23,139 bases of DNA from a virus. Shown piece by piece: positions 242 through 21,959 of this stretch. Position numbers and translations under genes: made by a program. Where the stretch lies: IMG/VR virus record IMGVR_UViG_3300025164_001380, positions 1-23,139 of that record, one strand, 5' to 3'. Every line of letters begins with the position of its first letter. Position 1 is the stretch's first letter. The notes below the pieces were generated by a model that searched no databases, was not told where the DNA came from, and saw only the letters and a list, made by a program, of their open reading frames with translations.

Positions 242-508
242 TCAGCCTCCCAGGACGCTCTTGATGCCGGCCTTAGACTGCCCGCCGAGTTCTCCGCCGG
301 CGAGGATGGTGGATTCCCGGCCCCGCCGCCGGCGCAGCTCCTGGGCCTGGGCGGAGATGTCCCCTGTCTCGGCCGGCAGGGGGGCCAGTACCGGCGGGGG
401 CGGCGGGAGCTGTATGACGGTCGCCTTCGGCTTGCCCCCGAACATTCCGAAAATGCTGGCGGCGGCGCCAATGGCGCCAAAGAGACTGGACCAGTCAGGG
501 CTCTCCAT
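242..508 (-). CDS. Small phage protein with Gly/Ala-rich N-terminus and basic RRRRGR motif
   Basis: An 88-aa protein preceded by a near-perfect AAAGGAGGAGG ribosome binding site. The first 25 residues are a short Trp/Phe/Gly/Ala-rich segment (SLFGAIGAAASIFGMFGG) that could insert in a membrane or pack as a hydrophobic helix. A proline run follows (PPPPP near residues 35-39), then a basic stretch RRRRGRESTIL and a Gly-rich end. From memory, short proteins with a C-terminal R-R-x-G-R-x-S-T-I-L motif recur in podophage tail and portal modules, where their role is unassigned. The gene sits between the 779-aa tail candidate and the next structural gene, with only short gaps. A virion-assembly role is likely; a specific function is not supported. 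Confidence 0.7.
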   Translation of the reverse strand: MESPDWSSLFGAIGAAASIFGMFGGKPKATVIQLPPPPPVLAPLPAETGDISAQAQELRRRRGRESTILAGGELGGQSKAGIKSVLGG

Positions 509-520
509 CGGCCTCCTCCT

Positions 521-2860
521 TTAACTCGGCATGTTCTGCGTTTCCACCGCCGGGACGGACATCTGGCCGTCCTGGTACTGCACATGAATGCCGTTGCTAT
601 CCGGCGTCTTGCCCACCCGGGGATAGCGGGGATCGGCGGGCGTGTTCACGTCGTTCACCCGCTGCATGGTGCCGGCCGCCGAGAAGGCCAAGGCCTTCTT
701 CAGCGTGAGATCCACACCCTGGCCCAGCGTCACGCCCATGGTGTCTCCCCCAGCGTATTGGAAGCGCAGCTTGCTCATCAGGAGATCCAGGTCCATCAGC
801 GGATCCGGGCCCACGTGGATCTCGTCCACGGAGGCCTGGTCGATGGCGTAGCGGGCGAGGTTCTGGCGGTCCAGCAGGGCCAGGGCATCGGGAAAGGCCC
901 GCTCGCGGATCAGCACCCAGCGAGAGCCCAGGAACAGGAAAGATTTGCGGGCGGGCAGATTCTCGACGTCCCCCGCCTCTTGTAGGGAGCCATCCGCGAG
1001 GAGGTTCGCAAGCCGCGAAAACTCCCCTGAGCGCTGGATGACCATGGCGAAGTGCGGGATGGTGTCAGCCACCGGATGCTGCGGGGTATCGTGGAAGAAC
1101 TCCTGATCACGGATGATGTAATGGTCTGTGTGACCTCCGGGACTCCCACCCCCTGGCGATTCGCCCGCGCCCGCGGCCCCCGTATCCGTGAAGCTGATGG
1201 AGTTCGCAGGCCCGGCCACGCGGGACCACGCGCCGCTGGGGTGCTTGCGCCGGTAGAGCCGGAAATCTCCCGCGGGTGATCCGAAGGCATTCAGGCCGGA
1301 GATGCCAACGCTCTTGGTCGCGTCGTCCACGCGGAACAGCATCCGGCGACCTGGGCTCAATGAGAGGCCAGCCTGTGCCGGGGTCCAGGTGGTTTGGTAC
1401 TCATAAACGCCGGTCTCCGGCCAGGCTCCGCCGCCGGCCACGTCCGTGAAGACCAGAGACACGTTCGTGCTGAAGGCGTCTGGGGCGACCAGCGCCTGCG
1501 GTGCCACCATGAGCACGGAGCGCCATACACCACTGAATTCGTTGAACACCACCTCATGCGTTTGCGCGATGCGCTCGCGGTGCATCAGGGCGGTCGTCGC
1601 CGTCCATTCGGTCTTCCACGGCTCCGCCAGGTACGGGTTCGCCGGCAGCGTATCCATGATCAGGCCATACCAAGGCACTCCGAGCGTGCCGACACCGGGA
1701 GTCCAATTCGTCTCCGAGACGGTCCCTATCACGAAGTTCAGCGTGGGGGTGATGCCACCCGGGCATCCCCCACCAGGGGGGTCGATCTGGTTGAATCCCC
1801 GATTCAGGCTGCCCCAGTAGACCGCCCAGGCCAGGCTGGTGGACGCCGCAATCGTCCGCAGCACCACCGTCTTGGTCGTCAAATTCACGACGTAGTAATA
1901 GGGAAATCGAAACACGGACCCAATGACGGCACTGCTGAAATTCTGCTGGTTGCGGTAATTCCCATAGTTGCTTTGCGGTACGGTGAACTCTCCGAACCAG
2001 TCGTTCACGATGGCCGTCACCGGGCCCACGCCGCCGGTGAACCCCGTGAGCGTGATATCCGTGAGCGGCAACTCACATCCCGAGAGCCCCGTGTAGAGCG
2101 CCAGCACTTCCAGGTTGCCGCTCCCATCCAGGCGCGGGTAGATCGAGAGGGGATTCGAGATACCGTACTGCACCTGCGTGGGCGAGAGGGCATTGATCCC
2201 CGTGACCACCAGCCCATCACCAGCCAGCCCCACCGAATCAATCACACAGTCTCCACCTAGATTCACGTCCCAGGTCTCATCGCGCCGGATCAGGTTCTCG
2301 AACACCTCAAGGTTCAAAGTCCGCAGGATCACCTCGTTGGTCCGCGCCGTCGTCCGGCTTACCTCCGTCATGGCCAGCTTCGGCAGCACCGGGCTCTCTC
2401 CGTAGGGGATGGTGACGGTCTCTGCACCAACCTGGCCCCCGTAGGAGAACTCCACCATTGTTACTTCGTCAATTCCGAATGTCGGGAAGAAGGTCTCGAA
2501 CTCGCCCTTGATGATGTCCGTGGGTGCCACCCACACCACGACGAAGCGTGAGGGGTTCCCGTCCACGAAGCGCACATGGGGGAAGTTCGGCCATCGGCTA
2601 GATCGCTGGGGGAACCTATAGCCCACATTCTCGCCCACGTCGTAGTCATCCAGGGTGAAACTCGGGGCGCCGAAGTCGGCGGTAAGGTCCCTGGCGAACA
2701 CGCCGCCATCGGTCCTGGACAGGATCAGATAGGTGTGGCCCTCGATGAATCCGTCCGCCGCGCGGATGAACAGCCCGATGCTGGTCATGTCCGCTGGGCC
2801 CGCTGGACCCGGAGGGAGTGGAGGCCAGGGACACCTCGCGTTGTCGGTCACCCATGGCAT
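521..2860 (-). CDS. Large putative tail protein (779 aa)
   Basis: A 779-aa protein whose ATG overlaps the stop of the repeat-protein gene upstream (TAATG), which implies translational coupling. The N-terminus is proline-rich to about residue 24; an alternative start is Met25. Most of the chain is beta-rich with many Gly, Thr, Tyr and Asp residues. Around residues 540-570 a stretch containing FRLYRRKHPSGAWSRV followed by SFTDTG looks like a fibronectin-III-like strand pair. The last 200 residues (from about IIRDQEFFHD) are more helical and may form a separate assembly domain. Length and position resemble podophage tail-tube or tail-hub proteins, but I cannot place it in the T7 gp12 family or any other with confidence. 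Confidence 0.7.
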   Translation of the reverse strand: MPWVTDNARCPWPPLPPGPAGPADMTSIGLFIRAADGFIEGHTYLILSRTDGGVFARDLTADFGAPSFTLDDYDVGENVGYRFPQRSSRWPNFPHVRFVDGNPSRFVVVWVAPTDIIKGEFETFFPTFGIDEVTMVEFSYGGQVGAETVTIPYGESPVLPKLAMTEVSRTTARTNEVILRTLNLEVFENLIRRDETWDVNLGGDCVIDSVGLAGDGLVVTGINALSPTQVQYGISNPLSIYPRLDGSGNLEVLALYTGLSGCELPLTDITLTGFTGGVGPVTAIVNDWFGEFTVPQSNYGNYRNQQNFSSAVIGSVFRFPYYYVVNLTTKTVVLRTIAASTSLAWAVYWGSLNRGFNQIDPPGGGCPGGITPTLNFVIGTVSETNWTPGVGTLGVPWYGLIMDTLPANPYLAEPWKTEWTATTALMHRERIAQTHEVVFNEFSGVWRSVLMVAPQALVAPDAFSTNVSLVFTDVAGGGAWPETGVYEYQTTWTPAQAGLSLSPGRRMLFRVDDATKSVGISGLNAFGSPAGDFRLYRRKHPSGAWSRVAGPANSISFTDTGAAGAGESPGGGSPGGHTDHYIIRDQEFFHDTPQHPVADTIPHFAMVIQRSGEFSRLANLLADGSLQEAGDVENLPARKSFLFLGSRWVLIRERAFPDALALLDRQNLARYAIDQASVDEIHVGPDPLMDLDLLMSKLRFQYAGGDTMGVTLGQGVDLTLKKALAFSAAGTMQRVNDVNTPADPRYPRVGKTPDSNGIHVQYQDGQMSVPAVETQNMPS

Positions 2861-4875
2861 TAGGGCGAGACCTCATCGTGTTTCCCGATCATGATCGGGG
2901 GCGGCACCCACCAGGGATGTGAACCGAAGGGATGGTTGGGCGGCGGCGCAGCCGACGGCAGCAGATAGGCGGTCACCGCCGTCGCTCGGCCGGGCGCCCG
3001 ATTCGGCAAGAGGTTGCCGATCTCGATGGGCCGCGGGAGCACCGGGAGGTACAGATCGAGGACCCCCGGTTGGAAGAGGGTGTAGGCGGATCCCCCCGCC
3101 CGCGGACCCGGAGCCCGCTCGGGAACGAGGCTCCCGATCTCGAGGACGAGCGGGACGCCTGCCAGTTCGCGCCCGAAGAAGATGTAGGCGGAGCGTGCCG
3201 TCTGCGGCCCCGGGGCGCGATCCGGGAAGAGGCGCAGCACGGTGACGGGGACATCGGCGTACTCCCCCACCTGTGGGTAGGCCCACAACTGGAAAGCCGT
3301 GGAGGCGATGGAGCGTCCTGGTGCCCGTTCTGCGAACAGGGACCTGACAGTCGTGGCCACCTGCCCGCCGTAGAGTTCGACCGGGAACGGCACCAGTTGG
3401 TAGGCCGTCCTGGCGGTCGCAGGCCCAGGGGCGCGGTCGGGAAGCAGGTGTCCGAAGCCCGTGGGCGTCGGGGCCAGCGGGTAGAGATCCGGGCCTCCCG
3501 CGAGGAACCATCCAGGCGCGGCGGTTTTGGCTCCCGGCGCTCGGTCTGGAAGGAGCGACCGGACCGTTGACGGGACCTGCCCACCGTACAACTCGACCTG
3601 GAAGGCCCGGATGGTGTAGGCGTCTGGAGAGGTGGACAACCCGGGGGCCCGGTCGGGCAGGAGGCTGAGGATTTCGAGAGGCTTCCCCCCGTACAGTTCG
3701 ATGGGCCAGGGCTGTACCCCATAGGCCGTCGCCGCCGTCCGACTGGCACCAGGCGCCCGCTCGGGGAACAGGCGTCCGATTTCGATGGGGACGCTACCCA
3801 GGGTGTAGAGATCGGGCGTTCCAGAAAGGAACCATCCTGGGGAGGCAGTCTTGGCACCAGGAGCCAGCTCGGGCAGGAGGAACCGAGCCGCCGGAGGGAA
3901 CGGAATCCCCAGGTCCACCACGCCCGTCCGCATGAACGAGTAGACAGCCTCGGATGCCCGTGGGGTGTACGCCCGGTCGGGCAGGAAAGACCCGATCTCG
4001 ATGGGGCGCTCGGGGAACCCCAGGGCGCCATACTGCGACCACGAGGAGAAGAGTCGGGCGGACAGGACACGATGCGGGAAGGTCGCAAAGCCCGCGGGCA
4101 GAGCCTCCACCACACCCTCTGGTGGGACGGGTAGGAATGGGATGCCATAGGCAGTTTGCGGAGCCCACCAGCGATGAGGGCTTCGAAGGGTGCGGTGGAC
4201 ACCTCCCCCATAGTACGGTGACACGGCGGCGGTGTAGAGGTCGGGCGTGCCGGGCACCAGGAGCTTGAAGGCGGAAGAGCCGACCGCTGGTCCGGGGGCG
4301 CGATCAGGTAGCAGTCGGGACGGCGGTGCCCCCCCATAGAGTTCCACTGGCCAAGGACGAAGACCGTAAGCCGTGGCGGCAGTGCGCGATACGCCGGGCG
4401 CGCGGTCGGGAAGGAGGGACAGGACCTCTTCCGGCTTCCCACCGTACAGTTCCACCGGCCAGGGGCGGATGCCGTAGGCCGTAGCCGCAGTACGCTCCGG
4501 TCCCGGGGCTCGGTCGGGAACCAGTGAGCCAATCTCAAGGGGCCGTGTGGATGGGATGATCGGCTGGACCTTGAGTTCATACGCAGCCAGGCTGGCCTGC
4601 CGCCGCTCCCAGCGGGCGTACATGCGGAGGACGCCGCCACCGCGGAACGGAGACTCCACGGCTGGGGCAGCGTAGAGATCGACGGACCCAGGCCACGCGA
4701 TGTCATAGGCGGTGCGAGCAATGTCCCGGCCGGGAGCGCGCTCAGGACAGATGCACCGGACAGGCAGCGGGACCTGGCCACCGTACAACTCGGGCTGCCG
4801 ATTGAGCCACCACCAGGCCCACGGCGCCGCCGCAGGTCCACGTCGTGACTGCTGCCAGAAGAGATAGTCCGCCAC
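2860..4875 (-). CDS. Protein of 36-residue RAPG repeats (671 aa)
   Basis: A 671-aa protein starting at GTG (TGATGTG context: the upstream methyltransferase stop is 1 nt away); an ATG two bases earlier is in another frame. Nearly the whole chain is a degenerate repeat. Each unit carries P-[DE]-R-A-P-G, then about 8 residues to an S/T-A-Y/F or P-G-W aromatic site, then a V/I/D-E/D-L-Y-G-G-like strand and a hydrophobic E-I-G-S-L or V-R-S-L linker. RAPG-type cores begin at residues 46, 122, 158, 192, 301, 337, 373, 409, 445, 481, 517, 553, 587 and 626; spacing is exactly 36 from 301 to 553. Two or three degenerate units fill 46-122 and 192-301. There is no signal peptide and no enzyme motif. A repetitive virion fibre, solenoid or tape-like protein is the best guess; no family is recognised. 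Confidence 0.85.
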   Translation of the reverse strand: MADYLFWQQSRRGPAAAPWAWWWLNRQPELYGGQVPLPVRCICPERAPGRDIARTAYDIAWPGSVDLYAAPAVESPFRGGGVLRMYARWERRQASLAAYELKVQPIIPSTRPLEIGSLVPDRAPGPERTAATAYGIRPWPVELYGGKPEEVLSLLPDRAPGVSRTAATAYGLRPWPVELYGGAPPSRLLPDRAPGPAVGSSAFKLLVPGTPDLYTAAVSPYYGGGVHRTLRSPHRWWAPQTAYGIPFLPVPPEGVVEALPAGFATFPHRVLSARLFSSWSQYGALGFPERPIEIGSFLPDRAYTPRASEAVYSFMRTGVVDLGIPFPPAARFLLPELAPGAKTASPGWFLSGTPDLYTLGSVPIEIGRLFPERAPGASRTAATAYGVQPWPIELYGGKPLEILSLLPDRAPGLSTSPDAYTIRAFQVELYGGQVPSTVRSLLPDRAPGAKTAAPGWFLAGGPDLYPLAPTPTGFGHLLPDRAPGPATARTAYQLVPFPVELYGGQVATTVRSLFAERAPGRSIASTAFQLWAYPQVGEYADVPVTVLRLFPDRAPGPQTARSAYIFFGRELAGVPLVLEIGSLVPERAPGPRAGGSAYTLFQPGVLDLYLPVLPRPIEIGNLLPNRAPGRATAVTAYLLPSAAPPPNHPFGSHPWWVPPPIMIGKHDEVSP
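2989..4740 (-). repeat. Array of about 17 imperfect 36-codon (108-nt) repeats
   Basis: This interval spans the first to last RAPG-type core inside the 671-aa gene. From 3975 down to 3208 eight consecutive cores are exactly 108 nt apart. Elsewhere spacings are 34, 36, 38-39 or multiples of about 36 residues, as expected after small indels. Neighbouring units differ at many synonymous positions while keeping P-D/E-R-A-P-G, the aromatic site and L-Y-G-G. That pattern fits an old array held by selection on the protein and not a recent DNA expansion. Confidence 0.85.
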
Positions 4876-4876
4876 A

Positions 4877-5452
4877 TCAGCGTCTCGTCATCACCCACAC
4901 GCCGCAGGGGCACGGGATCATCACCTTGTCCCACGCAGCGCCCAGCTTCCCCCAGTGGTACACGTCCTGGGGATCGTGAGCGTTGTGCGCTACCACGACG
5001 GCACGCGGCGTCAGAAACGGGACGAAGTGCTCCAGTTCCGATAGGCGATCATCCCCGCCGTCGATGAACAGGAGGTCGATAGGATGGTCCCATGGCGTGG
5101 AGCGGGCATCGTCATGCCGCACGGTCACGAAGGAATCCAGTTCTTCCACCTCCAGGAACTTCGCCGCTTGCTCGCAGCACTCCTGCTGGATATCGAACGT
5201 CCAGACATGCCCGAGGCCGTTCTCTCGGCAGCCGAGTGCCATCATCCCCGCCGAGTGGCCGAGATACGTCCCCGTCTCCACGATGACCTTGGGCTTGAGC
5301 AGCACCACCAGCGCCTTCAGGAACTCCCACGTCTCCACCTCGGAAGCCCAGGCGTCCAGTTCCGTCCAGCGCCACGGCTCCGGGCAGAGGTCCCACGGCT
5401 GGACGGGGGCCTGCTTGAGCTGCGCCCAGGTGGTGAAGGGGGGGCGCCTCAT
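4877..5452 (-). CDS. Class I SAM-dependent methyltransferase (191 aa)
   Basis: The start chosen is the ATG at 5452, which overlaps the upstream TGA as ATGA and has GGAGGG about 11 nt ahead; an in-frame ATG at 5503 would lie inside the Tat-protein gene. Residues 56-67 (VIVETGTYLGHS) match motif I of the Rossmann SAM-binding fold, FDI at 86-88 fits the acidic end of strand 2, and DLLFIDGG at 126-133 matches the motif of the Methyltransf_24 / cephalosporin-hydroxylase-like group. The substrate is unknown; members of this group often modify sugars or small molecules. It is coupled to the Tat-signal gene and, beyond it, the glycosyltransferase gene, so a role in glycan modification is plausible but inferred. 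The C-terminus contains a CPC pair. Confidence 0.85.
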   Translation of the reverse strand: MRRPPFTTWAQLKQAPVQPWDLCPEPWRWTELDAWASEVETWEFLKALVVLLKPKVIVETGTYLGHSAGMMALGCRENGLGHVWTFDIQQECCEQAAKFLEVEELDSFVTVRHDDARSTPWDHPIDLLFIDGGDDRLSELEHFVPFLTPRAVVVAHNAHDPQDVYHWGKLGAAWDKVMIPCPCGVWVMTRR

Positions 5453-5838
5453 CGAAGTTTCGCGCCCTCCCTGCGTCCGCCGGAAGACCCCAGGAAGCTC
5501 CAAAGGCCTCCCCTGTTATCCATCACGACTCCCCCTGCGAATGTTTCGAGAAGTTGGTGTCCGTCGTGTATGTAGCAACCCTCCCCAGGCGCAGCCACCC
5601 ACCTCATATGCGCTTGCTGTCCGATGGCGAAGTCCAGTAGCTTCTGGCCCCCGGCTCGCTCAACGGAGAAACGCAATCCCTCGTGTGGATCAAGCGTCAC
5701 GATCCTGGCCGGTGCTGGTGTCCAGAGGACTTCTCCGCCTGACGCCTGGAGCGCCGCGCCAGCCCCCAGGCCGGCGATAGCCCCAGCGATCCCTTTGAGT
5801 ATACCGCGCCGAGAAACCAACCCGTCAAAGTCCTTCAT
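5449..5838 (-). CDS. Small protein with Tat-type signal peptide
   Basis: A 129-aa protein starting at the ATG at 5838, which overlaps the glycosyltransferase stop (ATGA); it overlaps the methyltransferase start in the same way at its end. The N-terminus is a textbook twin-arginine signal: S9-R10-R11-G-I-L-K, then a hydrophobic Gly/Ala segment (about residues 17-31) and an A-L-Q-A cleavage-like site near residue 32. The mature part of about 97 residues has no recognised domain; it contains two His residues and ends in a basic tail. Tat export implies that it folds, perhaps around a cofactor, before crossing the inner membrane. A Tat-exported protein in a phage late operon is unusual. It could instead be a membrane-anchored protein using the segment as an uncleaved helix. 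Confidence 0.8.
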   Translation of the reverse strand: MKDFDGLVSRRGILKGIAGAIAGLGAGAALQASGGEVLWTPAPARIVTLDPHEGLRFSVERAGGQKLLDFAIGQQAHMRWVAAPGEGCYIHDGHQLLETFAGGVVMDNRGGLWSFLGSSGGRREGAKLR

Positions 5839-6551
5839 CGCGTCCACTTCTCCTGCTTGCTGAGGTCGATGTGGATGTTCGTGCGGGCGAAGTCGAACCG
5901 CACATCGATGCCATCCGGCGGCGCGGGCCACACACTACAGGGAGTGATGTGGCCGATCTTGTTGTCGCAGTCCACCCAGATTTTGTACCCGGCCTCGATC
6001 ACCTTCTTGCTGAAGTTCGTATCCTCCTGCATGTGGCCCCGGTCCAGTTGGCCGGGGTCGAACCAGTGCTCCTTCAGCGCCTCCAGCACCGGGCGGCGCA
6101 CAAGCAGGCCCGCCCCCCCGATCACCTGGGTCTCCTGCAAGCCGTGCAGGGCGATCTTGCTCCAGGGGCGCCACTTGCTCCCGGCGTTCCAGACGGTCTC
6201 GTCCCCGTTGTGGTTGGGCTCCAACGAGATGGCGTGGAAGGGCGGGTAACGCATCGAGCACAGGGGCGCCACCACATCCAGCTTGCGGTCCAGGAGCCGC
6301 ATGAGCAGGTCCCCGTCCCACACGTGGTCATCGTCGCTAAAGAACACCCACTGCATGTTCGGGTCGTTGAGGGCCTGACGAATGATGTTGTTCCGGTTGA
6401 CGCAGATATCATAGCCACGCTCCCAGGCCGCCACGGAGTACATAGGGCTCATCATGTTCTGGAGCGAGGCCACGAACTCCGTGTAGCGCGTGAGGTCGCC
6501 ACTCGTGATGCCGATCACTCCGGGCGGGTGGTCACTTTGGACGAAGAGCAT
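5835..6551 (-). CDS. GT-A-type glycosyltransferase (238 aa)
   Basis: The ATG at 6551 is preferred because GGAGGTGG lies 4-6 nt upstream; a longer reading starts at 6584. The protein shows GT-A nucleotide-sugar transferase features: WVFFSDDDHVW (residues 68-78) contains the D-x-D metal and nucleotide-sugar site, GGAGLLVRR (145-153) is the acceptor-side loop, QED (175-177) is a candidate catalytic acid region, and H201 in K-I-G-H-I fits the late His often seen in these folds. There is no membrane segment, so it would act in the cytoplasm. Its stop overlaps the Tat-protein start. Possible targets are virion proteins, phage DNA or host envelope precursors; the sequence does not decide between them. 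Confidence 0.85.
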   Translation of the reverse strand: MLFVQSDHPPGVIGITSGDLTRYTEFVASLQNMMSPMYSVAAWERGYDICVNRNNIIRQALNDPNMQWVFFSDDDHVWDGDLLMRLLDRKLDVVAPLCSMRYPPFHAISLEPNHNGDETVWNAGSKWRPWSKIALHGLQETQVIGGAGLLVRRPVLEALKEHWFDPGQLDRGHMQEDTNFSKKVIEAGYKIWVDCDNKIGHITPCSVWPAPPDGIDVRFDFARTNIHIDLSKQEKWTR

Positions 6552-6669
6552 CAGCCACCTCCATAACGACGAGGACACGCCCACACTTCCAGCACTGAAC
6601 CGTGCCGGGGCGCGGTCCAGGCCGGTACGAGCAGAGACAGGTACGCGGACTAGTCTTCAGACCAGGCAA
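6532..6669 (-). CDS. Candidate mini zinc-ribbon protein (45 aa, TTG start)
   Basis: In the gap between the 156-aa gene and the glycosyltransferase, a reading frame from a TTG at 6669 to the TGA at 6532-6534 encodes CLC (residues 12-14) and, 14 residues later, CWKC. This four-cysteine arrangement is typical of a small zinc knuckle. It overlaps both neighbours, has no clear ribosome binding site, and its start is uncertain. It is listed because two other Cys-rich small genes lie close by. It may be spurious. Confidence 0.3.
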   Translation of the reverse strand: MPGLKTSPRTCLCSYRPGPRPGTVQCWKCGRVLVVMEVADALRPK

Positions 6670-7647: not shown

Positions 7648-9488
7648 TAGCCGTACCTCCATGAGGAGCGGTCGATGGTCGTGGTGTGACCCACCAGAGA
7701 ACCCTCGGCTTGTTGCGCGACGAGTTCAAACGCACCCATATCCCAACCATCTCCTCGCGGTCTATCGCCGTTGTCCTGGTCCACCTGGACACTGATGCCG
7801 TAGTTCGCCAGGAACGTGGCATAGGCAGCAGCGAGCGTTCCAGCGTCCTTCGCTGGGGACCCCGTAAGGAGGCGATAGTTGTCCTGGGGGGCGGCGACAA
7901 ACAACGGGTCATTTGTGGTCGCATGAGCGCACTGGCCCTGACCACTTTGGAATCCCGCCAGTGTGGTATACGTTGCTTGCGCCCAACGGGTGAACCACGA
8001 TTGCACCCCAGGATGCAGCAGCGCGTAATCCATCGACATGTACGCGCCAGGAGCTTGACCCATGTTTGTGAACCTCGCTTGAGGTGCCCCGCCCTCTGGC
8101 GCCTTTAGGAAGGCGATGATGTCGTTCAACGAGTGCATGCCGTCCGGATTGAATACGCACTCGATCCCGTTATGGACATTGGCAAGGGTGTTGTTGACCG
8201 TGAAAAGGTTGCCACCTGGCGCAGCGTGCCGTGTGATGCCCCAACCATTCGGGCTGCCCCAGTGTGGATAATCCTCCAACCAGTCCGTGGGGTTCTGGTA
8301 GGTATCGTGAATGAGATTGCCAATCATGTAGCTGTTCATCGTCGCGTCGGAGGCGCCGGAATCGCTCGCGCGCGTCCCGTTGCCGCAGTCGAAGAAATGA
8401 TTGAAGATTAACCACATGCGGTCCTTCGCGTACTGGTATGCGATGGCCTCGCCCGCACTGCCGCCGTGTCCCCGACAGAAGTTGAAGGTGTTCTGGGAGC
8501 ATACGATGTCCACGCATTGCTTTAAGCCAATCGGGGCCTGACGATTTTGTCCTCCCGTGCAGCGGCCGACATAGATGTGATTGATATACCCCATCTCCGA
8601 AGCATCCTGGATGGGTCGTCCGGTGGTCTGGATCAGGTTTCCGCTGATCAATTGCCCATCACATTCGAGCACCCACACATTCTTGATTTCCGTCGGTGGC
8701 GTCCGGGAGTACAGGCTCAGGCCGATTCCATGGTAGTCCTGGTCGATGAAGTCCCAGGTCTCGAAGTTCATGCCGAGGTTATTGAAGACACACCGCAGAA
8801 ACAGAATGTCGTTGATGACGGCGCCCTGAGCAGGCGTAATGCCTGTGGCTGAGTTTGCCGAGACGAAGGGCAGGTCCCGGAACGTGCAATCTCGAACGCA
8901 AAGGTGGTGCGTTCCCGTCCCCACCACACCGATCCCCGCACTCGATGCGCCCTCGAACACCAAGTTCTCGAAGATGGTATAGACCAGCCCGATTGTTCCG
9001 CCTCCGTTGGAGGTGTTCCACGCACCGCTGATGGACGGAAGGTTCCCTGCAACACCACGAACAACGGCGGGATTCCCAGCCGTCCCACCACCCGTAAAGA
9101 TCACGTCTGCCGTGTACGTTCCAGGGTCGATCTGGATCACGTCCCCAGGACTCAACGTCTTCGTCCCTGAGAGCGTCGTCACGGTTTCGGTCGCCGCACC
9201 GGCCGCCTCGGTAATGCCGAAGGACGGCATGGGGATGCCGATGGGCGGAGCCCACACCCCACCCCGTGGCGGGAAGGCCAGCATACGCCGCGTGCGCTCT
9301 GACAGGAAACGGTAGGTGTCCGCAACGACGGGTGCGAGACAGCCCTTCTTGGCGTAGTACCACGTCTCCCGCAGCACATCGGCCACATCGCGTGGGGCGC
9401 GTTCGAGGATGTGACCGTGGGTGCGTCCCGCCGAGGAGACAGGCAGGTGACGCCACCAGGGGACTCCGACTAGGCGATACGCCCTCAT
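7647..9488 (-). CDS. Right-handed beta-helix protein (613 aa), possible tailspike or depolymerase
   Basis: The start is the ATG at 9488, overlapping the upstream stop (ATGA); a longer frame to 9626 is not supported. An N-terminal region of about 100 residues is helical and basic. From about residue 110 the chain is a parallel beta-helix: SPGDVIQIDPGTYT is a typical first rung, followed by rungs rich in V/I-x-N/D-C/N-x-F (for example NLVFEG, VRDCTF, FLRCVF, IVCSQNTF, FNHFFDC). The last 70 residues (NDPLF, then GSPAKDAGT, then GDGWDMGAFEL) resemble choice-of-anchor Q domains of secreted bacterial proteins. Phage beta-helix proteins often bind or cleave surface polysaccharide; catalytic residues cannot be assigned here. 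Its neighbours are beta-rich structural genes, which supports a virion location. Confidence 0.8.
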   Translation of the reverse strand: MRAYRLVGVPWWRHLPVSSAGRTHGHILERAPRDVADVLRETWYYAKKGCLAPVVADTYRFLSERTRRMLAFPPRGGVWAPPIGIPMPSFGITEAAGAATETVTTLSGTKTLSPGDVIQIDPGTYTADVIFTGGGTAGNPAVVRGVAGNLPSISGAWNTSNGGGTIGLVYTIFENLVFEGASSAGIGVVGTGTHHLCVRDCTFRDLPFVSANSATGITPAQGAVINDILFLRCVFNNLGMNFETWDFIDQDYHGIGLSLYSRTPPTEIKNVWVLECDGQLISGNLIQTTGRPIQDASEMGYINHIYVGRCTGGQNRQAPIGLKQCVDIVCSQNTFNFCRGHGGSAGEAIAYQYAKDRMWLIFNHFFDCGNGTRASDSGASDATMNSYMIGNLIHDTYQNPTDWLEDYPHWGSPNGWGITRHAAPGGNLFTVNNTLANVHNGIECVFNPDGMHSLNDIIAFLKAPEGGAPQARFTNMGQAPGAYMSMDYALLHPGVQSWFTRWAQATYTTLAGFQSGQGQCAHATTNDPLFVAAPQDNYRLLTGSPAKDAGTLAAAYATFLANYGISVQVDQDNGDRPRGDGWDMGAFELVAQQAEGSLVGHTTTIDRSSWRYG

Positions 9489-10591
9489 AGATACGTTGCC
9501 AGCGCTTGGCCTACGGGTTGCGCCGCTCCACCGGCCGTCCAGTCCCCCAAGTACAGCCCCATCACCGGCCGCCGGGTGGGCACGTCCGTCCATGCGCCCG
9601 CATCGGTGCGGGTGGACAGGTAGCACTGCGTACCATAGGGCAGACAGGTCAGGTCGCCAGCCGTCTCGAACTCCAGTGTGTCCAAGGCATCGTCCTGCCC
9701 TGTCGCGCCGCCGCTGTTGAGGAACAGGCTCAGTCGATACTCGCTCCCAAAGTTCAGCGTGGACAGTGTAACCTCGTCAAAGTAAAAGGAGCATAGGCGT
9801 TCGGTGTTTTGCGACGTGGTGAGTTCGCTGTGGTCGATCGTCACGGTTTGCAGGGCCGTGGTCCCATCGTAGAGCGTGAGCGTCGATGTCAGTGCGGCCG
9901 CGCCGACCCGCCACGACAAACGACCGCCGGCCACCGTAAACGTCGATCCGTACCCTGCGTCGAAGTTGAACCTCATCGCATACTCGTCGGGAGTATCGGC
10001 GTCATCGAACAGGGTGGTCGTGTAGGCCTTCAGCGGGAACCCATAGGTTTTGCTGGCGCTCCGCAGGCCGAAGACGGCTTTCTCGGACTGGTGGGCCCGT
10101 GATCCGGCGTTGTTCTGGATCGCGTAGGGCCGCACGTGAACAGGTCCAAGCTGCGTGATGTGCGTCGTGTACGAACTATTATTGGTCCCGTCAATCGTTC
10201 CGGAGTCATAGGCGATCACGATGGCGACGAGTTGCCCCCGCGTGAGCGCGATGCTGTTATCTAACGTGACGGCGCGGATAGTGCCGTCCCATGTGGCGTC
10301 TGCGGGTGGGGTGAACGTCACGGATGCGGGACTGCCGCCGCCGAGAATGGTGCCGTTGGGGGCCCCTGTTGTGTTGTTCACCCCCTGCAAACTGGCCTTG
10401 AACGTCGGTGGGGTCCCCGTGCGTAGGCCGTATCGGAAGAGGATGGTCGTGATCGTCGCGGCCTCGGGCATCTGGAACACCCACTCCGCGGCGTCCGTGG
10501 CCGCGTCCAGCACGAAATTCGTCATGGTCGGCGTCACACCGTCAAGGGTGATCCCCGTATCACCAAACAGGCCGCGTGCGAAGTCGGTCAT
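9485..10591 (-). CDS. Putative virion surface protein with jelly-roll-like modules (368 aa)
   Basis: A 368-aa protein with an ATG at 10591 and a GGGGAAGTGAG ribosome binding site. It is almost entirely beta-prone: an N-terminal stretch of about 150 residues (ATITTILFRYGLRTG, then VTFTPPADATW) reads like a lectin or CBM-type sandwich. A second module at about 170-330 contains YGFPLKAYTT and a strand-rich block with TLTLYDGTT. No signal peptide or catalytic motif is visible. Its stop overlaps the start of the beta-helix gene, so the two products may form one appendage or receptor-binding complex. A carbohydrate-binding role is inferred from fold-like patterning only. Confidence 0.7.
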   Translation of the reverse strand: MTDFARGLFGDTGITLDGVTPTMTNFVLDAATDAAEWVFQMPEAATITTILFRYGLRTGTPPTFKASLQGVNNTTGAPNGTILGGGSPASVTFTPPADATWDGTIRAVTLDNSIALTRGQLVAIVIAYDSGTIDGTNNSSYTTHITQLGPVHVRPYAIQNNAGSRAHQSEKAVFGLRSASKTYGFPLKAYTTTLFDDADTPDEYAMRFNFDAGYGSTFTVAGGRLSWRVGAAALTSTLTLYDGTTALQTVTIDHSELTTSQNTERLCSFYFDEVTLSTLNFGSEYRLSLFLNSGGATGQDDALDTLEFETAGDLTCLPYGTQCYLSTRTDAGAWTDVPTRRPVMGLYLGDWTAGGAAQPVGQALATYL

Positions 10592-11461: not shown

Positions 11462-11839
11462 TCACCGTGTCGGCGCGAAGCAGGTGACGATCAGGGTGCC
11501 CGTGGCGGCGTTGCCGACCGCGCGCACGCGCGAGGGCTGGGCGACGACCATGACGTCGCCGATGGCGAAATTGTTGTCGGTCGAGGCCGGCGTGCCCGCC
11601 GTCACCCCCAGTTTCAGGAACATGGCCCCCGTGAGGACCTGGATCATGCCCGGGTACTCGGGTTCGCCGGTCGTGCCCCCGGGCCGGCAGACCGTGGCCG
11701 GCAGGTTGACCGCCGCGTAGGGCGTCACGGTGACGGACCCGGTGGCGAACGGGTAGCCGAGGGTCCAGTCCTGGGGCCAGGTGAACGCCAGGAGCCAGCC
11801 GGACAGGATGGCCAGGGCCATCAGGAGCGGACGTTTCAT
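11462..11839 (-). CDS. Small Sec-exported protein (125 aa)
   Basis: A 125-aa protein with a Sec-type signal: M-K-R-P start, hydrophobic core LLMALAILSGWLLAF, and possible cleavage or membrane retention near residue 20. The mature part is beta-rich, contains one Cys in TVCRPGG and one near the C-terminus (VTCFAPTR) that could form a disulfide in the periplasm, and includes the segment F-A-I-G-D-V-M-V-V. Its start overlaps the O-antigen ligase-like stop (ATGA). The other exported protein in the cassette (12834-13310) has a comparable size, cysteines and I-T-A-G-D-V-I-I-V, so the two may be distantly related. Function unknown; periplasm or outer surface is the expected location. Confidence 0.75.
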   Translation of the reverse strand: MKRPLLMALAILSGWLLAFTWPQDWTLGYPFATGSVTVTPYAAVNLPATVCRPGGTTGEPEYPGMIQVLTGAMFLKLGVTAGTPASTDNNFAIGDVMVVAQPSRVRAVGNAATGTLIVTCFAPTR

Positions 11840-12852
11840 GGGGCCCTCCGGGTGGCGAACGCCAGCGCCGGCAGCGCCAGCACGGCCACGGCGGGAAGCT
11901 GGAAGGGGAACATGCCCAGGGACTCGATCAGCACGGCCGCCAGCAGGGCGGCGGACTCGGGCGCCTGGAAGGCCCGGCGGTGGGACCAGAGCCAGGCTCC
12001 CACCAGGGCCAGCGCGACCAGACCCCCCTCATACCCAAGCTGCAACAGGTCATTGTGCGCTGCGTCAAAGCGTTGGTGCTGCCCAACGCGAGGCTGGGCC
12101 ATGCCCCACGACCCGATGCCCTTGCCGAAGACCAGACCACCCCGGGCCCACTCGGTGACCGCCCAGCGCCAGATGAGGAGGCGCTCGAAGACGGGTTGGA
12201 GGCCCCCGCCGCGGTGCCACCAGGCGAGGGCCACGAAGGCGCCTCCCGACAGGATCCACCGCCAGCCCCAAGGGAACCGCACGGCGGCGGCCGCTGTGGC
12301 CGCCAGGGCCGCCAAGAAGGACTTGGTGGCCAGGATGCCGATGGCGAAGGCCGGCAGGAGCCAGACGGGCGACCAGACGGAGGCGATGGCCAGGTAGGCC
12401 CCCGCATAGTTCGAGTTGCCCAGCGTGCCGCCAGACCAGGCGCCCCAGGTGAACCCCGGCAGGCCAGCGGCGTGGGCGATCACCCAGGCCGCCTGCACCA
12501 GGCCCACGGCCAGCGCCACGCAGCGCAGGCGCAGGCGCCAAGGGTTCCCCAGCGCGCCGGCACCGGCGTAAAGGCCCAGGCCGAGGATGGCGAACACGAC
12601 GGTATTGAACCCATCGGGAAAGGGCGTGACCAGCATCCGGAGGATCAGGTAGGCCCCCAGGAGCCCAGCCCAGAGGTCGCCCGACGAGGCGCAGACGGCC
12701 AAGAGCATCCCCATCAGCAGGACGTAGGACACGGGGACGGCCTGGACGACGAGATGGCCGGCCGGGGTGGCCGCCAGGCCGTACCAGAGGGGCACGATGG
12801 CCATCAGGGCTGCCAGGAGTGCGCCGCGGATGGCTAAGCCGTGCCCATGCAC
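11836..12852 (-). CDS. O-antigen ligase/polymerase-like membrane protein (Wzy_C type)
   Basis: A 338-aa protein with many hydrophobic helices spaced over its length (about 8-10 transmembrane segments). Diagnostic features of the WaaL/Wzy_C superfamily are present: G-T-L-G-N-S-N-Y-A at 142-150, an Arg-rich loop with E-R-L-L-I-W-R-W at 223-230, and the periplasmic H-N-D-L-L-Q-L-G-Y-E-G-G at 266-277, followed by a final hydrophobic block. Family members join or extend undecaprenol-linked glycan in the periplasm. It is somewhat shorter than typical chromosomal ligases, which have about 10-12 helices and 400 or more residues. The start is a GTG at 12852 overlapping the preceding gene; Met17 (12804) is an alternative. 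In phages such genes could alter receptor glycans or block superinfection; this is inference. Confidence 0.85.
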   Translation of the reverse strand: MHGHGLAIRGALLAALMAIVPLWYGLAATPAGHLVVQAVPVSYVLLMGMLLAVCASSGDLWAGLLGAYLILRMLVTPFPDGFNTVVFAILGLGLYAGAGALGNPWRLRLRCVALAVGLVQAAWVIAHAAGLPGFTWGAWSGGTLGNSNYAGAYLAIASVWSPVWLLPAFAIGILATKSFLAALAATAAAAVRFPWGWRWILSGGAFVALAWWHRGGGLQPVFERLLIWRWAVTEWARGGLVFGKGIGSWGMAQPRVGQHQRFDAAHNDLLQLGYEGGLVALALVGAWLWSHRRAFQAPESAALLAAVLIESLGMFPFQLPAVAVLALPALAFATRRAP

Positions 12853-13310
12853 TGGTAGGCGATCCGATCGCTGGTGGCGACCCCGGTGGCCACGATGATA
12901 TTCATGGTGGTCGTCCCGGTATCCACCTGTTGCACCACGCTGCCGGCGGTGCCGGTTTGCTTCTGGGCGAGACAGGATGGCGCCGCGGTCCAGGCGGTGT
13001 TGAATGTCAAGCTCAATGTCGTCGCCACGGTGCCCCCCAGGGTGATGACCCCCGCGGAATCATTGCCCCGGATGGTGTGCGTGGTGCCGCACCCGGCGTA
13101 GGTCGCCGCGCAGGTGGGCGGCGTGGCGGCCAGCAGGCGGATGCGGCTGTTGTTCGTCAGACGCAGTCCCGCCGCATCCACGATGATCACGTCCCCCGCG
13201 GTGATCCCGCCCAGGGTCGGAATGGGGTAGAGCCAGGTGCCATCGGTGGCCCACAGCGTGCCCGCCACCAGCAGGAGGGACACCAAGGCGATCAGCAGCG
13301 TCTTCTTCAT
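12834..13310 (-). CDS. Small Sec-exported beta-rich protein (158 aa)
   Basis: A 158-aa protein with a clear Sec signal peptide: M-K-K, hydrophobic LLIALVSLLLVAGTL, and an L-W-A cleavage-like site at about residue 21. The mature chain is Thr/Ala/Gly-rich and beta-prone, with four cysteines (two in a TCAATYAGC cluster, one in PSCLAQ and one near the end) that could form disulfides after export. GGAGG lies 6 nt before the ATG. It is the first gene after an 11-bp GC hairpin and its 3' end overlaps the O-antigen ligase-like gene. An envelope role beside that protein is plausible; no family is recognised. Confidence 0.75.
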   Translation of the reverse strand: MKKTLLIALVSLLLVAGTLWATDGTWLYPIPTLGGITAGDVIIVDAAGLRLTNNSRIRLLAATPPTCAATYAGCGTTHTIRGNDSAGVITLGGTVATTLSLTFNTAWTAAPSCLAQKQTGTAGSVVQQVDTGTTTMNIIVATGVATSDRIAYQCMGTA

Positions 13311-13908: not shown

Positions 13909-14817
13909 TTACAGGTTCTCCTGCAGGTACTGGACCTCCACCACGCGCTCGCCATCGCGCCGCACGGCGCCGCCCATGAGCTCGCCGTAGACCTGCCAGG
14001 AGTACGACAGGTCCGGGCGCTCGGAGATGCGGATGGTCTTGTCCTCGCCGATGCCCAGGCCCACGGCGCCGCGTTCCATGGCGACCCCCGAGACCACGCC
14101 GGCGGTCACGGACATGAGGGCCGAATCCACCATCGTGAAGTCGAACCCCAGGTAGGTGTTGACGTCGCCTTTGACCAGGGCCCGCACGGTGTTGTAATCC
14201 GCGCTGGTGACCTCGGTGGTGGCCAGCAGGTTCTCCTGCCCGAAGGAATCCCACACGAACACCCGGTCGCTGCCCACCATCAGCGCGTCCAGGATGTTCT
14301 TGGCCTGGCGCAGCTTGGCGATGGTCAGCCCCACGGCGCCGGAGGCGATCCGGTGGGAGACAGCCTTCCGGTCCGTCACGGGCCAGGTCTCGGTGCCCGA
14401 ATGCGTGGCGTCGCCGCCCGGGCCGATGGGCCCAGTGATCGCCGTGCCCAAGGCGGCCTGGAGCACGAACCGATCCCACTGCCGGCCGATGGCGGCCGCC
14501 AGGGCCTTCACGTAATCGCTGGTGGGATCCGTGATCAGGGTGGGCTTGATGCTGCGGTCCAGGTAGATGTTGGCCTGATAGGGCGCCAGGGTGGCCCAGC
14601 GCCGCGTGTGCTGGGGGTCCATGTTCGGGGTCGGGGCGTTCTGGCCCGGCTTGGGGGCCATCTCGACCATGCCGATCCGGTCGAACGACACCGACTCCCC
14701 GCGGACGTTGTCCTCGGTCCGCGCCCAGCCGCGCAGCCGGCTCTCCGTCTGCTGCGCTCGCATGAGCACCAGCTCGGTGTACGCCTTGATCTGTACGGCA
14801 GTGATGCTGTCAGCCAT
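13909..14817 (-). CDS. Major capsid protein (302 aa)
   Basis: The ATG at 14817 is chosen because GGAGGGG lies about 8 nt upstream; the frame is open to 14850. The protein begins MADSITAVQIKAYTELV and resembles the phage capsid proteins found next to connector and scaffold genes in podophages (HK97-like fold expected). An extended helical N-arm is followed by a Thr/Pro-rich loop (KPGQNAPTPNMDPQH), a spine-helix candidate with DYVKALAAAIGRQWDRFVLQAAL, and a C-terminal beta region ending VEVQYLQENL. The gene order scaffold, capsid, decoration candidate supports the call. Its long hairpin-rich leader suggests tuned expression. The exact family cannot be confirmed without a search. Confidence 0.85.
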   Translation of the reverse strand: MADSITAVQIKAYTELVLMRAQQTESRLRGWARTEDNVRGESVSFDRIGMVEMAPKPGQNAPTPNMDPQHTRRWATLAPYQANIYLDRSIKPTLITDPTSDYVKALAAAIGRQWDRFVLQAALGTAITGPIGPGGDATHSGTETWPVTDRKAVSHRIASGAVGLTIAKLRQAKNILDALMVGSDRVFVWDSFGQENLLATTEVTSADYNTVRALVKGDVNTYLGFDFTMVDSALMSVTAGVVSGVAMERGAVGLGIGEDKTIRISERPDLSYSWQVYGELMGGAVRRDGERVVEVQYLQENL

Positions 14818-14861
14818 GTCGCGGTCCCCTCCGTAAGATGCGGAAACCACTCATCTCACGG

Positions 14862-16166: not shown

Positions 16167-16410
16167 GGCCTCCGTTCGCCGCCTTCGGGATCATGGTGGG
16201 CACGACGATCGATGGCGCGTCCTTCCGCCGCTGGTTGAACTGCGCCTCGATGATGCGCTTCGCCTGGTCCACCAGGATCATCGGCACGGCTTCCGGGTGG
16301 AGATTCGTGCTCCACTGCACCTGCACGGCGGCGCCGTGCGCGGTGATGCTGATCTGCCAGGTGGGCTGGGCGGCCCGCTCCACGGCCCGATCCAGGGGGT
16401 TCTCGGTCAT
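16153..16410 (-). CDS. Small head-module protein (85 aa)
   Basis: An 85-aa gene whose ATG at 16410 overlaps the connector stop (ATGA). The product starts MTENPLDRAV and contains a beta hairpin-like middle (WQISITAHGAAVQVQW), a helix (MILVDQAKRIIEAQFNQRRKD) and a short strand with VVPTMIP. No membrane segment or catalytic motif is seen. Coupling to the connector gene and position before Bbp19 imply a head-assembly or DNA-entry role. The family is not recognised. Confidence 0.65.
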   Translation of the reverse strand: MTENPLDRAVERAAQPTWQISITAHGAAVQVQWSTNLHPEAVPMILVDQAKRIIEAQFNQRRKDAPSIVVPTMIPKAANGGHDRR

Positions 16411-18074
16411 GCCGGGATCTCCTCCGCGGCGCCCGCGTGCAGCGCCTGCACCATGGGAGCCGCCTTGCCGGCCCCTTCGGCCACCGCCATCAGGTCCATC
16501 TTCTGCTGCTGGGCCGCCTGCGCCTGGATCCGCTGCTGGCGGATCTGCTCCACGGCATCCTTCCCTCGGGTGACGCTGGCCGGCACGCCGTAGCCCCGGG
16601 CCACCACCAGGGCCTCCTGGTCGAAGTCGAAGTTGTCGAGCACGCTCTGGTCGTTGGGGTTCATCTGGAGCACGGTCTGTACCCAGAGGTTCTTCTGGGC
16701 GATCCCCGTCAGGGTCTCGGCCTCCTGGGCGCGGGCCATGGGGCCCAGGTACTTGATGTGCATCTCCACGCCGGGCATCCGCAGGCCCGGCGGGGGCGGG
16801 GGCAGGCCGCCGGCCCGCGCCAGCATCCGGGCCGTGCGCTCGATGATGGGAGCGTGCAGCTCCCCCGTGACGCGCCCGTAGGCGGGCCCCAGGAGCTTGA
16901 ACTCCTGTTCCACGCGCTTGGCCACCTCGAAGGCGGTCATGTAGCTGGGCCCCTGGGTGCTGGGGGGCAGGGCCTGGATCTGGTCCACGAAAAAGATTTT
17001 CCGGATTTTCGTCTCCAGCCGGTCGAAGCTCATCTTGGCCACGTCGTAGCGGACCCCGGAGGGCAGGGTCCAGACGCCCTGCTTGTCGCGGACCACGTTC
17101 CGGGCCAGGGGTTCCCACAGGAGGTCTCCGACCACGGTGCGGTCCAATTCGAAGAGGGGCGGCGCGATGTCCAGGGCCAGACCCTGAAGCAAGAGCTCAA
17201 CTTCCCGGTTCAAAGTCTTGATATCCGGGAGCGCCAGATGGCCCTGGCCGCGCCCATAGGTCTCCCCCGGCTGTTTGCGCCAGCGCCACACCGCGCCCGG
17301 GAACTCCTCGTAGCCCCCCTCGCGGATGATGTGCTTGCGCTCCACGTCCACCCAGCAGGAGGCGAAGGGCTTGTTGCGCCGGTCGCGCCGGCCGTAGCGC
17401 TCGTCCCGATCGTTCCGCGGGTAGATGGCGTGGAGAAGCGTCACCAGGTCGTCCGGCTTCTCCGTGACTTTCTCCTGCAGATCCGCATGGTTGGCCTCGC
17501 CCCACTCCCGCAGGCAGGCCCGGACGGTCATCACCGACTGGTAAAAAAGCACGTCCACCCGCCCCTTCTCGTTCTCCGAGATCCCGTAGGTGCCGATGGG
17601 CAGCGCGGTGAAAAGGGGGCGGGGTGGCAGGCCGGGTGTCGCGGCGGTCTCCTCCTCCTCGATGATGGCCGCGGTGCCGAACACCGGGCCCTCCAGGTAG
17701 GTCTCCCCGATCTCGTAATGGAAATTGCTGCTGTCCAGGACCCGGGTGACCCGGCGGGCCACCGCTTCCAGCCAGTCCTGCACCGCGTTGTCCTCGTTCA
17801 ACTCCTCCGGGGTGACGTAGAAGGTGAACCACTTGGTGGAGGGGTTGCTGAGATTCCCGTGGAGGCTGGAGGCCAGGAGCGTGGGCGCCGTGATGCCCTC
17901 GGAGTCGAAGAGTTGCCGGGTGATGCGGACCCCGGGGATGGTGAGGTTGATGGCCATGGCCCGGGTCGGCAACAGGTAGTTCGCCAACTCCAGGAAGTCC
18001 GCGTCCCAGTTCGTCCGGCGGTCGGCGTCCAGCCGGTCCCACCGGGCCAGGAGAGCCTTCACGTCTGCAGGCAT
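16407..18074 (-). CDS. Head-to-tail connector / portal protein (555 aa)
   Basis: A 555-aa protein of the podophage head-tail connector family (Pfam Head-tail_con type), whose dodecamer forms the DNA channel at the head vertex. Supporting features are an N-terminal helix with LLARWDRLDADRRTNWDADFLELANYLLP, a conserved GITAPTLLASSLHGNLSNPSTKWF block at about residues 58-83, a wing region with YLEGPVFGTAAI, a central YGRGQGHLALPDIKTLN segment, and a Gln/Ala-rich C-terminal tail beginning near EQIRQQRIQAQ. Length agrees with the family (about 500-700 residues). The ATG overlaps the upstream stop as TGATG. It follows the terminase genes in the usual order. Confidence 0.92.
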   Translation of the reverse strand: MPADVKALLARWDRLDADRRTNWDADFLELANYLLPTRAMAINLTIPGVRITRQLFDSEGITAPTLLASSLHGNLSNPSTKWFTFYVTPEELNEDNAVQDWLEAVARRVTRVLDSSNFHYEIGETYLEGPVFGTAAIIEEEETAATPGLPPRPLFTALPIGTYGISENEKGRVDVLFYQSVMTVRACLREWGEANHADLQEKVTEKPDDLVTLLHAIYPRNDRDERYGRRDRRNKPFASCWVDVERKHIIREGGYEEFPGAVWRWRKQPGETYGRGQGHLALPDIKTLNREVELLLQGLALDIAPPLFELDRTVVGDLLWEPLARNVVRDKQGVWTLPSGVRYDVAKMSFDRLETKIRKIFFVDQIQALPPSTQGPSYMTAFEVAKRVEQEFKLLGPAYGRVTGELHAPIIERTARMLARAGGLPPPPPGLRMPGVEMHIKYLGPMARAQEAETLTGIAQKNLWVQTVLQMNPNDQSVLDNFDFDQEALVVARGYGVPASVTRGKDAVEQIRQQRIQAQAAQQQKMDLMAVAEGAGKAAPMVQALHAGAAEEIPA

Positions 18075-21024: not shown

Positions 21025-21277
21025 CGGTCAGCTCACCGCGGCGCGCCTGCGCCTGCCGCTCATACCACTCCACAATGCCTTCGCGTTTGGCCTGGTCCCA
21101 CGATTCCACGCCGTGCCAGATGCTCTCGGTGCCGTGGGCCATCAGGTCGATCACGGCCCACATGGTGGCCGCAGCCTCCTTGCGGCCCAGGTAGCGGCCC
21201 GCAGGAAAGCTGGGCTTCCAGGTGCGGCCCAGCTCCCCGCCCTCGTCTCCGGCCTGGCGGTCACGCGCCTTTGGCAT
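21008..21277 (-). CDS. Hypothetical small protein (89 aa)
   Basis: The ATG at 21277 is chosen for its strong GGGGAGGAGG ribosome binding site; the open frame continues to 21382 without support. The product is hydrophilic and helical: a charged N-terminus (MPKARDRQAGDEGG), then MWAVIDLMAHGTESIWHGVESW and an amphipathic basic-acidic helix to the end. No cysteine cluster, membrane segment or enzyme motif is seen. It overlaps the replication gene upstream by 17 nt and the zinc-ribbon gene downstream by 17 nt. It is probably part of the DNA-metabolism unit; function unknown. Confidence 0.65.
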   Translation of the reverse strand: MPKARDRQAGDEGGELGRTWKPSFPAGRYLGRKEAAATMWAVIDLMAHGTESIWHGVESWDQAKREGIVEWYERQAQARRGELTDDGRV

Positions 21278-21959
21278 GGTGCCTCCTCCCCATCTCCACG
21301 GCCCGCTCCAGCCACGACCGCATGAACCGGCCCAGGCCCTTGGGTGTCGGACGGCGGCTGGGATTCGCCTCCAGCCAGGCATCCGCTTTGCGGATCTCGT
21401 CCTCGAAGAACAGCCAAGGGTACTGGTCGTAGGCCCGTTCCAGCGTCTGCCACAGTCCGGCGCATCGGCCGTTTCCTAGCGGCTGCAGGTGACGGGTCTC
21501 TGCCAGCCAGGCAGCAAGGGTGGGCGGAATGGGCGCGGCCGGCTTGCCCGGCTCCGCGCCTACGTCTTTTCCCTCTCCTCTCTTCTCTTCTCCTCTCTTC
21601 TCTTCTCCTCTCCTCTTAGACCGTTTCATTTGGCGAAATTTGCGAACTCTGGCGGTGCTGAAATCCCCTTGGTATTTCGCCCAGTTGCGAAATGAAACGA
21701 CTGTATTCGTTCCAAGTGAAACAGTGAGATTTGGCATCTCCTCAATGCACGCGATCATGTGCTGAAAATCGTCGCACTGAAGCATCGAAACCAGTATCTT
21801 TGCCGGTGAAACGAGCGTAACCGTTCCATCTTGGCCATGGGCCTTGGTGTAGGTGCCCAGCTTGCACCACCGGCCGAACTGGGCGATGGACAAGTTGTCC
21901 AAGGACGGGTCGGCCAACGCGCTCACCCATAGCTTGAACCAACGGCCTTGGTCGGCCAT
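21261..21959 (-). CDS. Phage replication protein, replisome-organiser-like (232 aa)
   Basis: The N-terminal 100 residues (MADQGRWFKLWVSAL, then LSIAQFGRWCKLGTYTKAHGQDGTV) resemble the winged-helix N-domain of phage replisome organiser / DnaD-like proteins that bind the origin and load helicase. A basic linker at about 112-130 (R-R-G-E-E-K repeated) follows, encoded by a 15-nt DNA repeat. The C-terminal part has IRKADAWLEANPSRRPTPKGLGRFMRSWLERA, similar to the end helices of helicase-loader proteins. The gene starts 3 nt after the methyltransferase stop. The role is inferred from fold-like pattern and context; a transcription regulator is an alternative. Confidence 0.65.
   Translation of the reverse strand: MADQGRWFKLWVSALADPSLDNLSIAQFGRWCKLGTYTKAHGQDGTVTLVSPAKILVSMLQCDDFQHMIACIEEMPNLTVSLGTNTVVSFRNWAKYQGDFSTARVRKFRQMKRSKRRGEEKRGEEKRGEGKDVGAEPGKPAAPIPPTLAAWLAETRHLQPLGNGRCAGLWQTLERAYDQYPWLFFEDEIRKADAWLEANPSRRPTPKGLGRFMRSWLERAVEMGRRHHAKGA
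21574..21617 (-). repeat. In-frame 15-nt polypyrimidine/polypurine repeat (about 2.9 copies)
   Basis: Two identical 15-nt units and a third with slight change lie inside an uninterrupted pyrimidine run at 21565-21617 (purine on the coding strand). Each unit equals five codons and encodes R-G-E-E-K, so copy-number change keeps the frame. It forms the linker of the replication protein. Confidence 0.85.

Follow-up and report, generated by a model that had tools for sequence, protein, structure and literature searches.

A gene on the minus strand of a virus record of 23,139 bases (the window, meaning the whole stretch of DNA analysed here) encodes a protein built from a unit of 36 residues around a P-D/E-R-A-P-G core, which we refer to as the RAPG protein. 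The array of units is old and is maintained by selection on the protein, with synonymous sites near saturation, and the repeat appears to be a new sequence family in the collections searched, as distinct from a new kind of system. Our preferred reading, to which we give a probability of about 0.4, is that the RAPG protein is a virion appendage built of repeats and specific to its lineage, with host contact as its probable function. Phages commonly encode proteins built of repeats in their host-recognition regions. The features that bear on the argument are collected in Table 1.

Table 1. Position of the RAPG gene, its groups of repeat units and the annotated genes around it.
Feature	Position in window	Strand	Basis or remark
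phrog_831 protein	242..508	minus	PHROG match
779-aa ORF	521..2860	minus	ATG overlaps RAPG stop (TAATG)
RAPG-repeat ORF, 671 aa, GTG start	2860..4875	minus	codon-position pattern and pS>pN in that frame only
Last two units, residues 573-645, cores 585, 624	2941..3159	minus	HMM 49, 46 bits
Eight consecutive units, residues 287-572, cores 299-551 exactly 36 apart	3160..4017	minus	autocorrelation, HMM
Three units, residues 108-213, cores 120, 156, 190	4237..4554	minus	HMM 58, 59, 36 bits
N-terminal unit standing alone, residues 32-67, with PERAPG core at 44	4675..4782	minus	HMM 57 bits
SAM-dependent methyltransferase, Methyltransf_24	4877..5503	minus	E 2.7e-15; directly upstream of RAPG gene
Glycosyltransferase-like protein	5835..6584	minus	phrog_1574 E 1e-6; GT2 E 9e-4, below Pfam cut-off
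Major capsid protein, phrog_3437	13909..14850	minus	E 8.6e-57; head-side cassette border
Portal / head-tail adaptor, phrog_332	16407..18074	minus	PHROG match

The record, a metagenome contig, is probably a fragment, and the ORF at its end (1-240) is cut off. Along the minus strand, the gene order is DNA methyltransferase, small ORFs, TerL, portal, a Bbp19-like protein (PF25181), a scaffold-like protein (phrog_3742), capsid, about a dozen further ORFs and phrog_831. The portal and capsid share ~30-38% identity with their counterparts in Pelagibacter phages (HTVC010P and Baldr, for example), and Vibrio phage phiVC8 also falls within this range, for the portal only. The phrog_332 portal, the phrog_3437 capsid, the Bbp19-like gene and the order TerL-portal-scaffold-capsid are together the features of an HTVC010P/phiVC8/BPP-1-type podovirus, and we assign this short-tailed phage to that group. 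A CCTCT/TCTCCTCTCTTCTCT microsatellite at 21572-21616 lies inside the ORF at 21261-21959 and encodes a K/R/E/G-rich stretch.

When the RAPG protein is scored against itself with BLOSUM62, the four best autocorrelation values fall at 36, 72, 108 and 144 residues (-0.03 to -0.32), all above the best value from 200 shuffles (-0.61), which bears out the 36-residue period proposed in the first-pass annotation. A unit HMM with the consensus gpvPleigsLLPdRAPGpstAstAYqLrawPgvld identifies 14 significant units of 36-59 bits each, with cores at residues 44, 120, 156, 190, 299, 335, 371, 407, 443, 479, 515, 551, 585 and 624, together with two degenerate units at residues 93 and 241, and in the N-terminal part RRGPAAAPWAWWWLNRQPELYGG resembles one more, incomplete unit. 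The earlier count of about 17 units therefore stands for 14 that are clear, the remaining two or three being degenerate. The eight cores that had been numbered 301, 337 and so on to 553 are indeed spaced exactly 36 apart, those numbers marking the R of the motif and the core P lying at 299 to 551. The P-D/E-R-A-P-G that had been ascribed to each core holds for most of them, the imperfect ones being PDRAYT (299), PELAPG (335), AERAPG (515) and PNRAPG (624).

Between directly adjacent units the interval is exactly 36 in 8 of 11 cases and 34, 34 and 39 in the other three. Inside the unit, the offset of an LY motif varies from 21 to 24 residues and the rest of the unit compensates, such that the sum stays at 36; shuffled pairings match the eight intervals of 36 in 0.16% of trials (p=0.0016), and the same p is obtained without units 299 (DLG) and 551 (ELA), in which the assignment of the motif is less certain. 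From the constant length and the compensated inner shifts we infer that the units pack against each other, which suggests packed units rather than loose beads. The array also has regular units of fixed length without identity at the DNA level, which is one feature of the solenoid class alongside the stacking of units in three dimensions.

Tandem Repeats Finder detects no DNA-level tandem array at the RAPG gene, so the repeat is visible in the protein only; many synonymous codons are used for the core residues Pro, Arg, Ala and Gly. Over the 91 pairs of units, mean pS is 0.66 and mean pN, which refers to the 25-residue unit, is 0.44, with pN below pS in 89 pairs, and the eight codons of the LLPDRAPG core form the best conserved stretch (pS 0.67, pN 0.16). 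These values agree with the purifying selection that had been deduced earlier from synonymous divergence. Adjacent units are no closer to each other than distant ones (mean identity 0.34 vs 0.35), which dates the array as old and, with the lack of a tandem array, rules out a recent expansion of the repeat at the DNA level.

The plus-strand frame across 2860-4875 is interrupted by internal stops, and in neither of the remaining two frames of the minus strand does pN fall below pS. One of these, the +1 frame, holds a 653-aa ORF (2973-4934, minus) with a TGATG start that overlaps the RAPG gene, and it is very improbable that this is the true coding frame and the repeat a by-product. Inside the RAPG gene the ORF runs for 633 codons without a stop, which only 1.7% of synonymous shuffles equal; however, its pN equals its pS (0.50, 0.50), unlike the RAPG frame, and its GC by codon position (0.59, 0.76, 0.71) is unlike that of the other genes. 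We reject it as a coding frame since it carries no coding signal.

The first-pass annotation had recognised no described family, and our searches point the same way. The RAPG protein matches no family of Pfam, PHROGs or NCBIfam up to an E-value of 1 except for phrog_8375 at chance level (0.39), and no relative was found among PDB sequences, by tblastn on phage and plasmid records, or in viral contigs and genome contigs by direct and profile searches. A profile search of 32 related records, which had no positive control, returned no counterpart. Of two spaced DNA patterns for the core, one gave zero matches and the other a single match (L075), which we rejected as two DRAPG pentapeptides paired by chance (5.5 bits); such back-translated patterns require a short, near-exact core, and distant relatives with a different core would escape them. 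The DNA of the gene is present in one contig only among the records searched, in collections that may omit records very near the window's own, and two near-identical contigs, IMGVR 3300025327_000178 and 3300025314_000221 (L005, L070), stop short of it. The DNA methyltransferase of the window (21963-23117, minus) differs in length from that of L070 (4529-5710) and is 89% identical to it over 393 aligned positions, although the contigs are otherwise near-identical.

Three related phages (G002, G004 and G005; TerL ~42% identical to that of the window phage) have the capsid gene, then a variable gene set and then the tail-tube genes phrog_394 and phrog_376, with a phrog_831 gene directly preceding phrog_394 in G004. 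Their cassettes correspond in place, not in sequence. None of the window proteins scanned, the RAPG protein and the 779-aa ORF included, matched either of these two PHROG profiles (tail tubular proteins A/B), and the tail-tube genes should lie past window position 1, beyond the end of the contig. Synteny would then place the RAPG and 779-aa genes at the tail-side end of the variable cassette. The placement of the gene in a tail module by the first-pass annotation is therefore only partly right: the late, structural region holds, but a tail module is not demonstrable for a gene inside a variable head-to-tail cassette.

The 779-aa ORF, likely a partner translationally coupled to the RAPG gene, has no family match and no relative in our searches and is not the tail nozzle by PHROG profile. 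At the other end of the RAPG gene, the methyltransferase stop lies 1 nt before the GTG start, and the gene is co-directional with its neighbours and apparently coupled. The cassette also encodes a beta-helix protein and further appendage-like ORFs. GC3 is 0.91-0.93 in the capsid, scaffold, portal and TerL genes and 0.72-0.81 in the RAPG gene, in the 779-aa and beta-helix ORFs and in the ORF at 9485-10591; the lower values would be compatible with separate acquisition. Within the cassette there is also a 338-aa polytopic membrane protein (11836-12852, minus) that matched nothing in Pfam, NCBIfam, PHROGs or PDB sequences; its AHNDLLQLGYEGG stretch may resemble O-antigen polymerase/ligase (Wzy/WaaL) proteins. 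Three small ORFs (5449-5931, 11462-11839 and 12834-13310, all minus) have signal-peptide-like N termini, the first with a weak Tat signal match below the cut-off (TIGR01409, E 0.017), and exported proteins would be odd between head and tail genes.

We propose that the RAPG protein, whose gene lies in the capsid-to-tail-tube cassette, may be an accessory, virion-borne part of the short-tailed phage. Its ~16 units of 36 residues would stack into a stiff, elongated, solenoid-like rod on which the same surface patch (D/E-R-A-P-G with an aromatic residue) recurs many times, and the repeated patch could make a many-point contact with the host surface, plausibly with glycan. We give the packed rod about even odds, and regard a virion part with host contact as somewhat less probable than that. 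The host-contact role draws its support, by analogy, from the variable cassettes and from the unrelated repeat proteins of relatives (G002, G008), taken together with published work on marine phages (PMC3909814). The fibre, the length-determining scaffold and the glycan-binding solenoid put forward in the first-pass annotation are candidate roles. A bolder version, in which a Pro/Gly-rich 36-residue unit with a DRAPG turn constitutes a new repeat fold and forms a long rod, either as a many-site receptor-binding appendage or to set a length, we consider unlikely.

What counts against a rod on the virion is a proline content of 15%, the lack, at both ends of the protein, of a domain recognisable as an adaptor or as receptor-binding, and AlphaFold pLDDT values of 31 for the whole chain and 28 for four units queried with four paralogous rows. 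The composition (with glycine at 10%), the failure of AlphaFold to give a structure and the superior conservation of the short core (pN 0.16 vs 0.44 for the 25-residue unit) would suit a flexible, partly disordered array of L-L-P-D/E-R-A-P-G motifs, with a single partner molecule, for instance a subunit of the capsid or of an appendage, bound at each motif. We think such an array doubtful, as the exact spacing of 36 and the compensated inner shifts persist despite near-saturated synonymous divergence, hydrophobic and aromatic positions outside the core are also conserved, and the mean hydropathy of 0.49 is above the Uversky disorder boundary of 0.42. Moreover, AlphaFold without homologues commonly fails even for folded proteins.

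The neighbouring genes might instead indicate a non-virion protein of an envelope-modifying cassette, which would alter the host surface with the methyltransferase, glycosyltransferase and membrane protein, its repeats acting as a scaffold in the cell, for example in superinfection blocking. The SAM methyltransferase is adjacent, the glycosyltransferase-like gene is nearby and the polytopic membrane protein and signal-peptide-like ORFs share the cassette; as a rule methyltransferases and glycosyltransferases are not virion proteins, and the cassette may thus serve another role. However, the beta-helix protein and other appendage-like ORFs share it too, and by inspection the RAPG protein has no signal peptide or membrane segment, so we hold this account to be unlikely. 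That the protein is instead a structural tape or ruler running along the capsid or neck, with one unit per subunit contact, is in our view improbable. The strict period, the lack of a recognised receptor-binding tip and a gene position between head and tail genes would be consistent with it, but a needed capsid part is expected to be conserved together with the capsid, and HTVC010P and Baldr, whose capsids are similar, have no counterpart by profile in the search that had no positive control.

With its strict period, its conservation and the lack of a detectable relative in the collections searched, the RAPG unit is well suited to structural work on what may be a new repeat fold, and the protein offers a way into the question of how new parts of the phage surface are built; it would be of modest interest if it proved to be one more private protein of a fibre-like kind. 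Among known repeats, those of TPR, PPR, Sel1 and HEAT proteins have ~34-40 residues and those of beta-propellers ~40, and the RAPG unit has only its length in common with them, whereas it is Pro/Gly-rich, has the RAPG core and matches no Pfam, NCBIfam or PDB sequence. The 246-aa repeat protein of G002 (L059 3593-4333, minus; period 22/44) ends the capsid-to-tail-tube cassette of that phage, like the RAPG protein in position, but it is Ala/Val/Gly/Ser-rich and unrelated in sequence, and its gene lies directly before the tail-tube gene, whereas in the window the 779-aa ORF and the phrog_831 gene intervene. In G008, a repeat protein with an 86-residue period (L067 9044-10630, minus) adjoins the capsid gene and has a weak minor-tail match. 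Host-recognition genes are reported to be enriched in the variable islands of marine phages, among them relatives of HTVC010P, and the repeat patterns in the tail fibres of these phages are fibre-specific, with no sequence similarity between them (PMC3909814). The fibres of HTVC010P-type pelagiphages described there share with the RAPG protein a private repeat pattern and a place in a variable island, although they keep a T7-type N-terminal domain (PF03906), to which the RAPG protein gave no Pfam match. Unless a structure shows otherwise, the RAPG protein is best filed with the repeat-built accessory proteins of phages.
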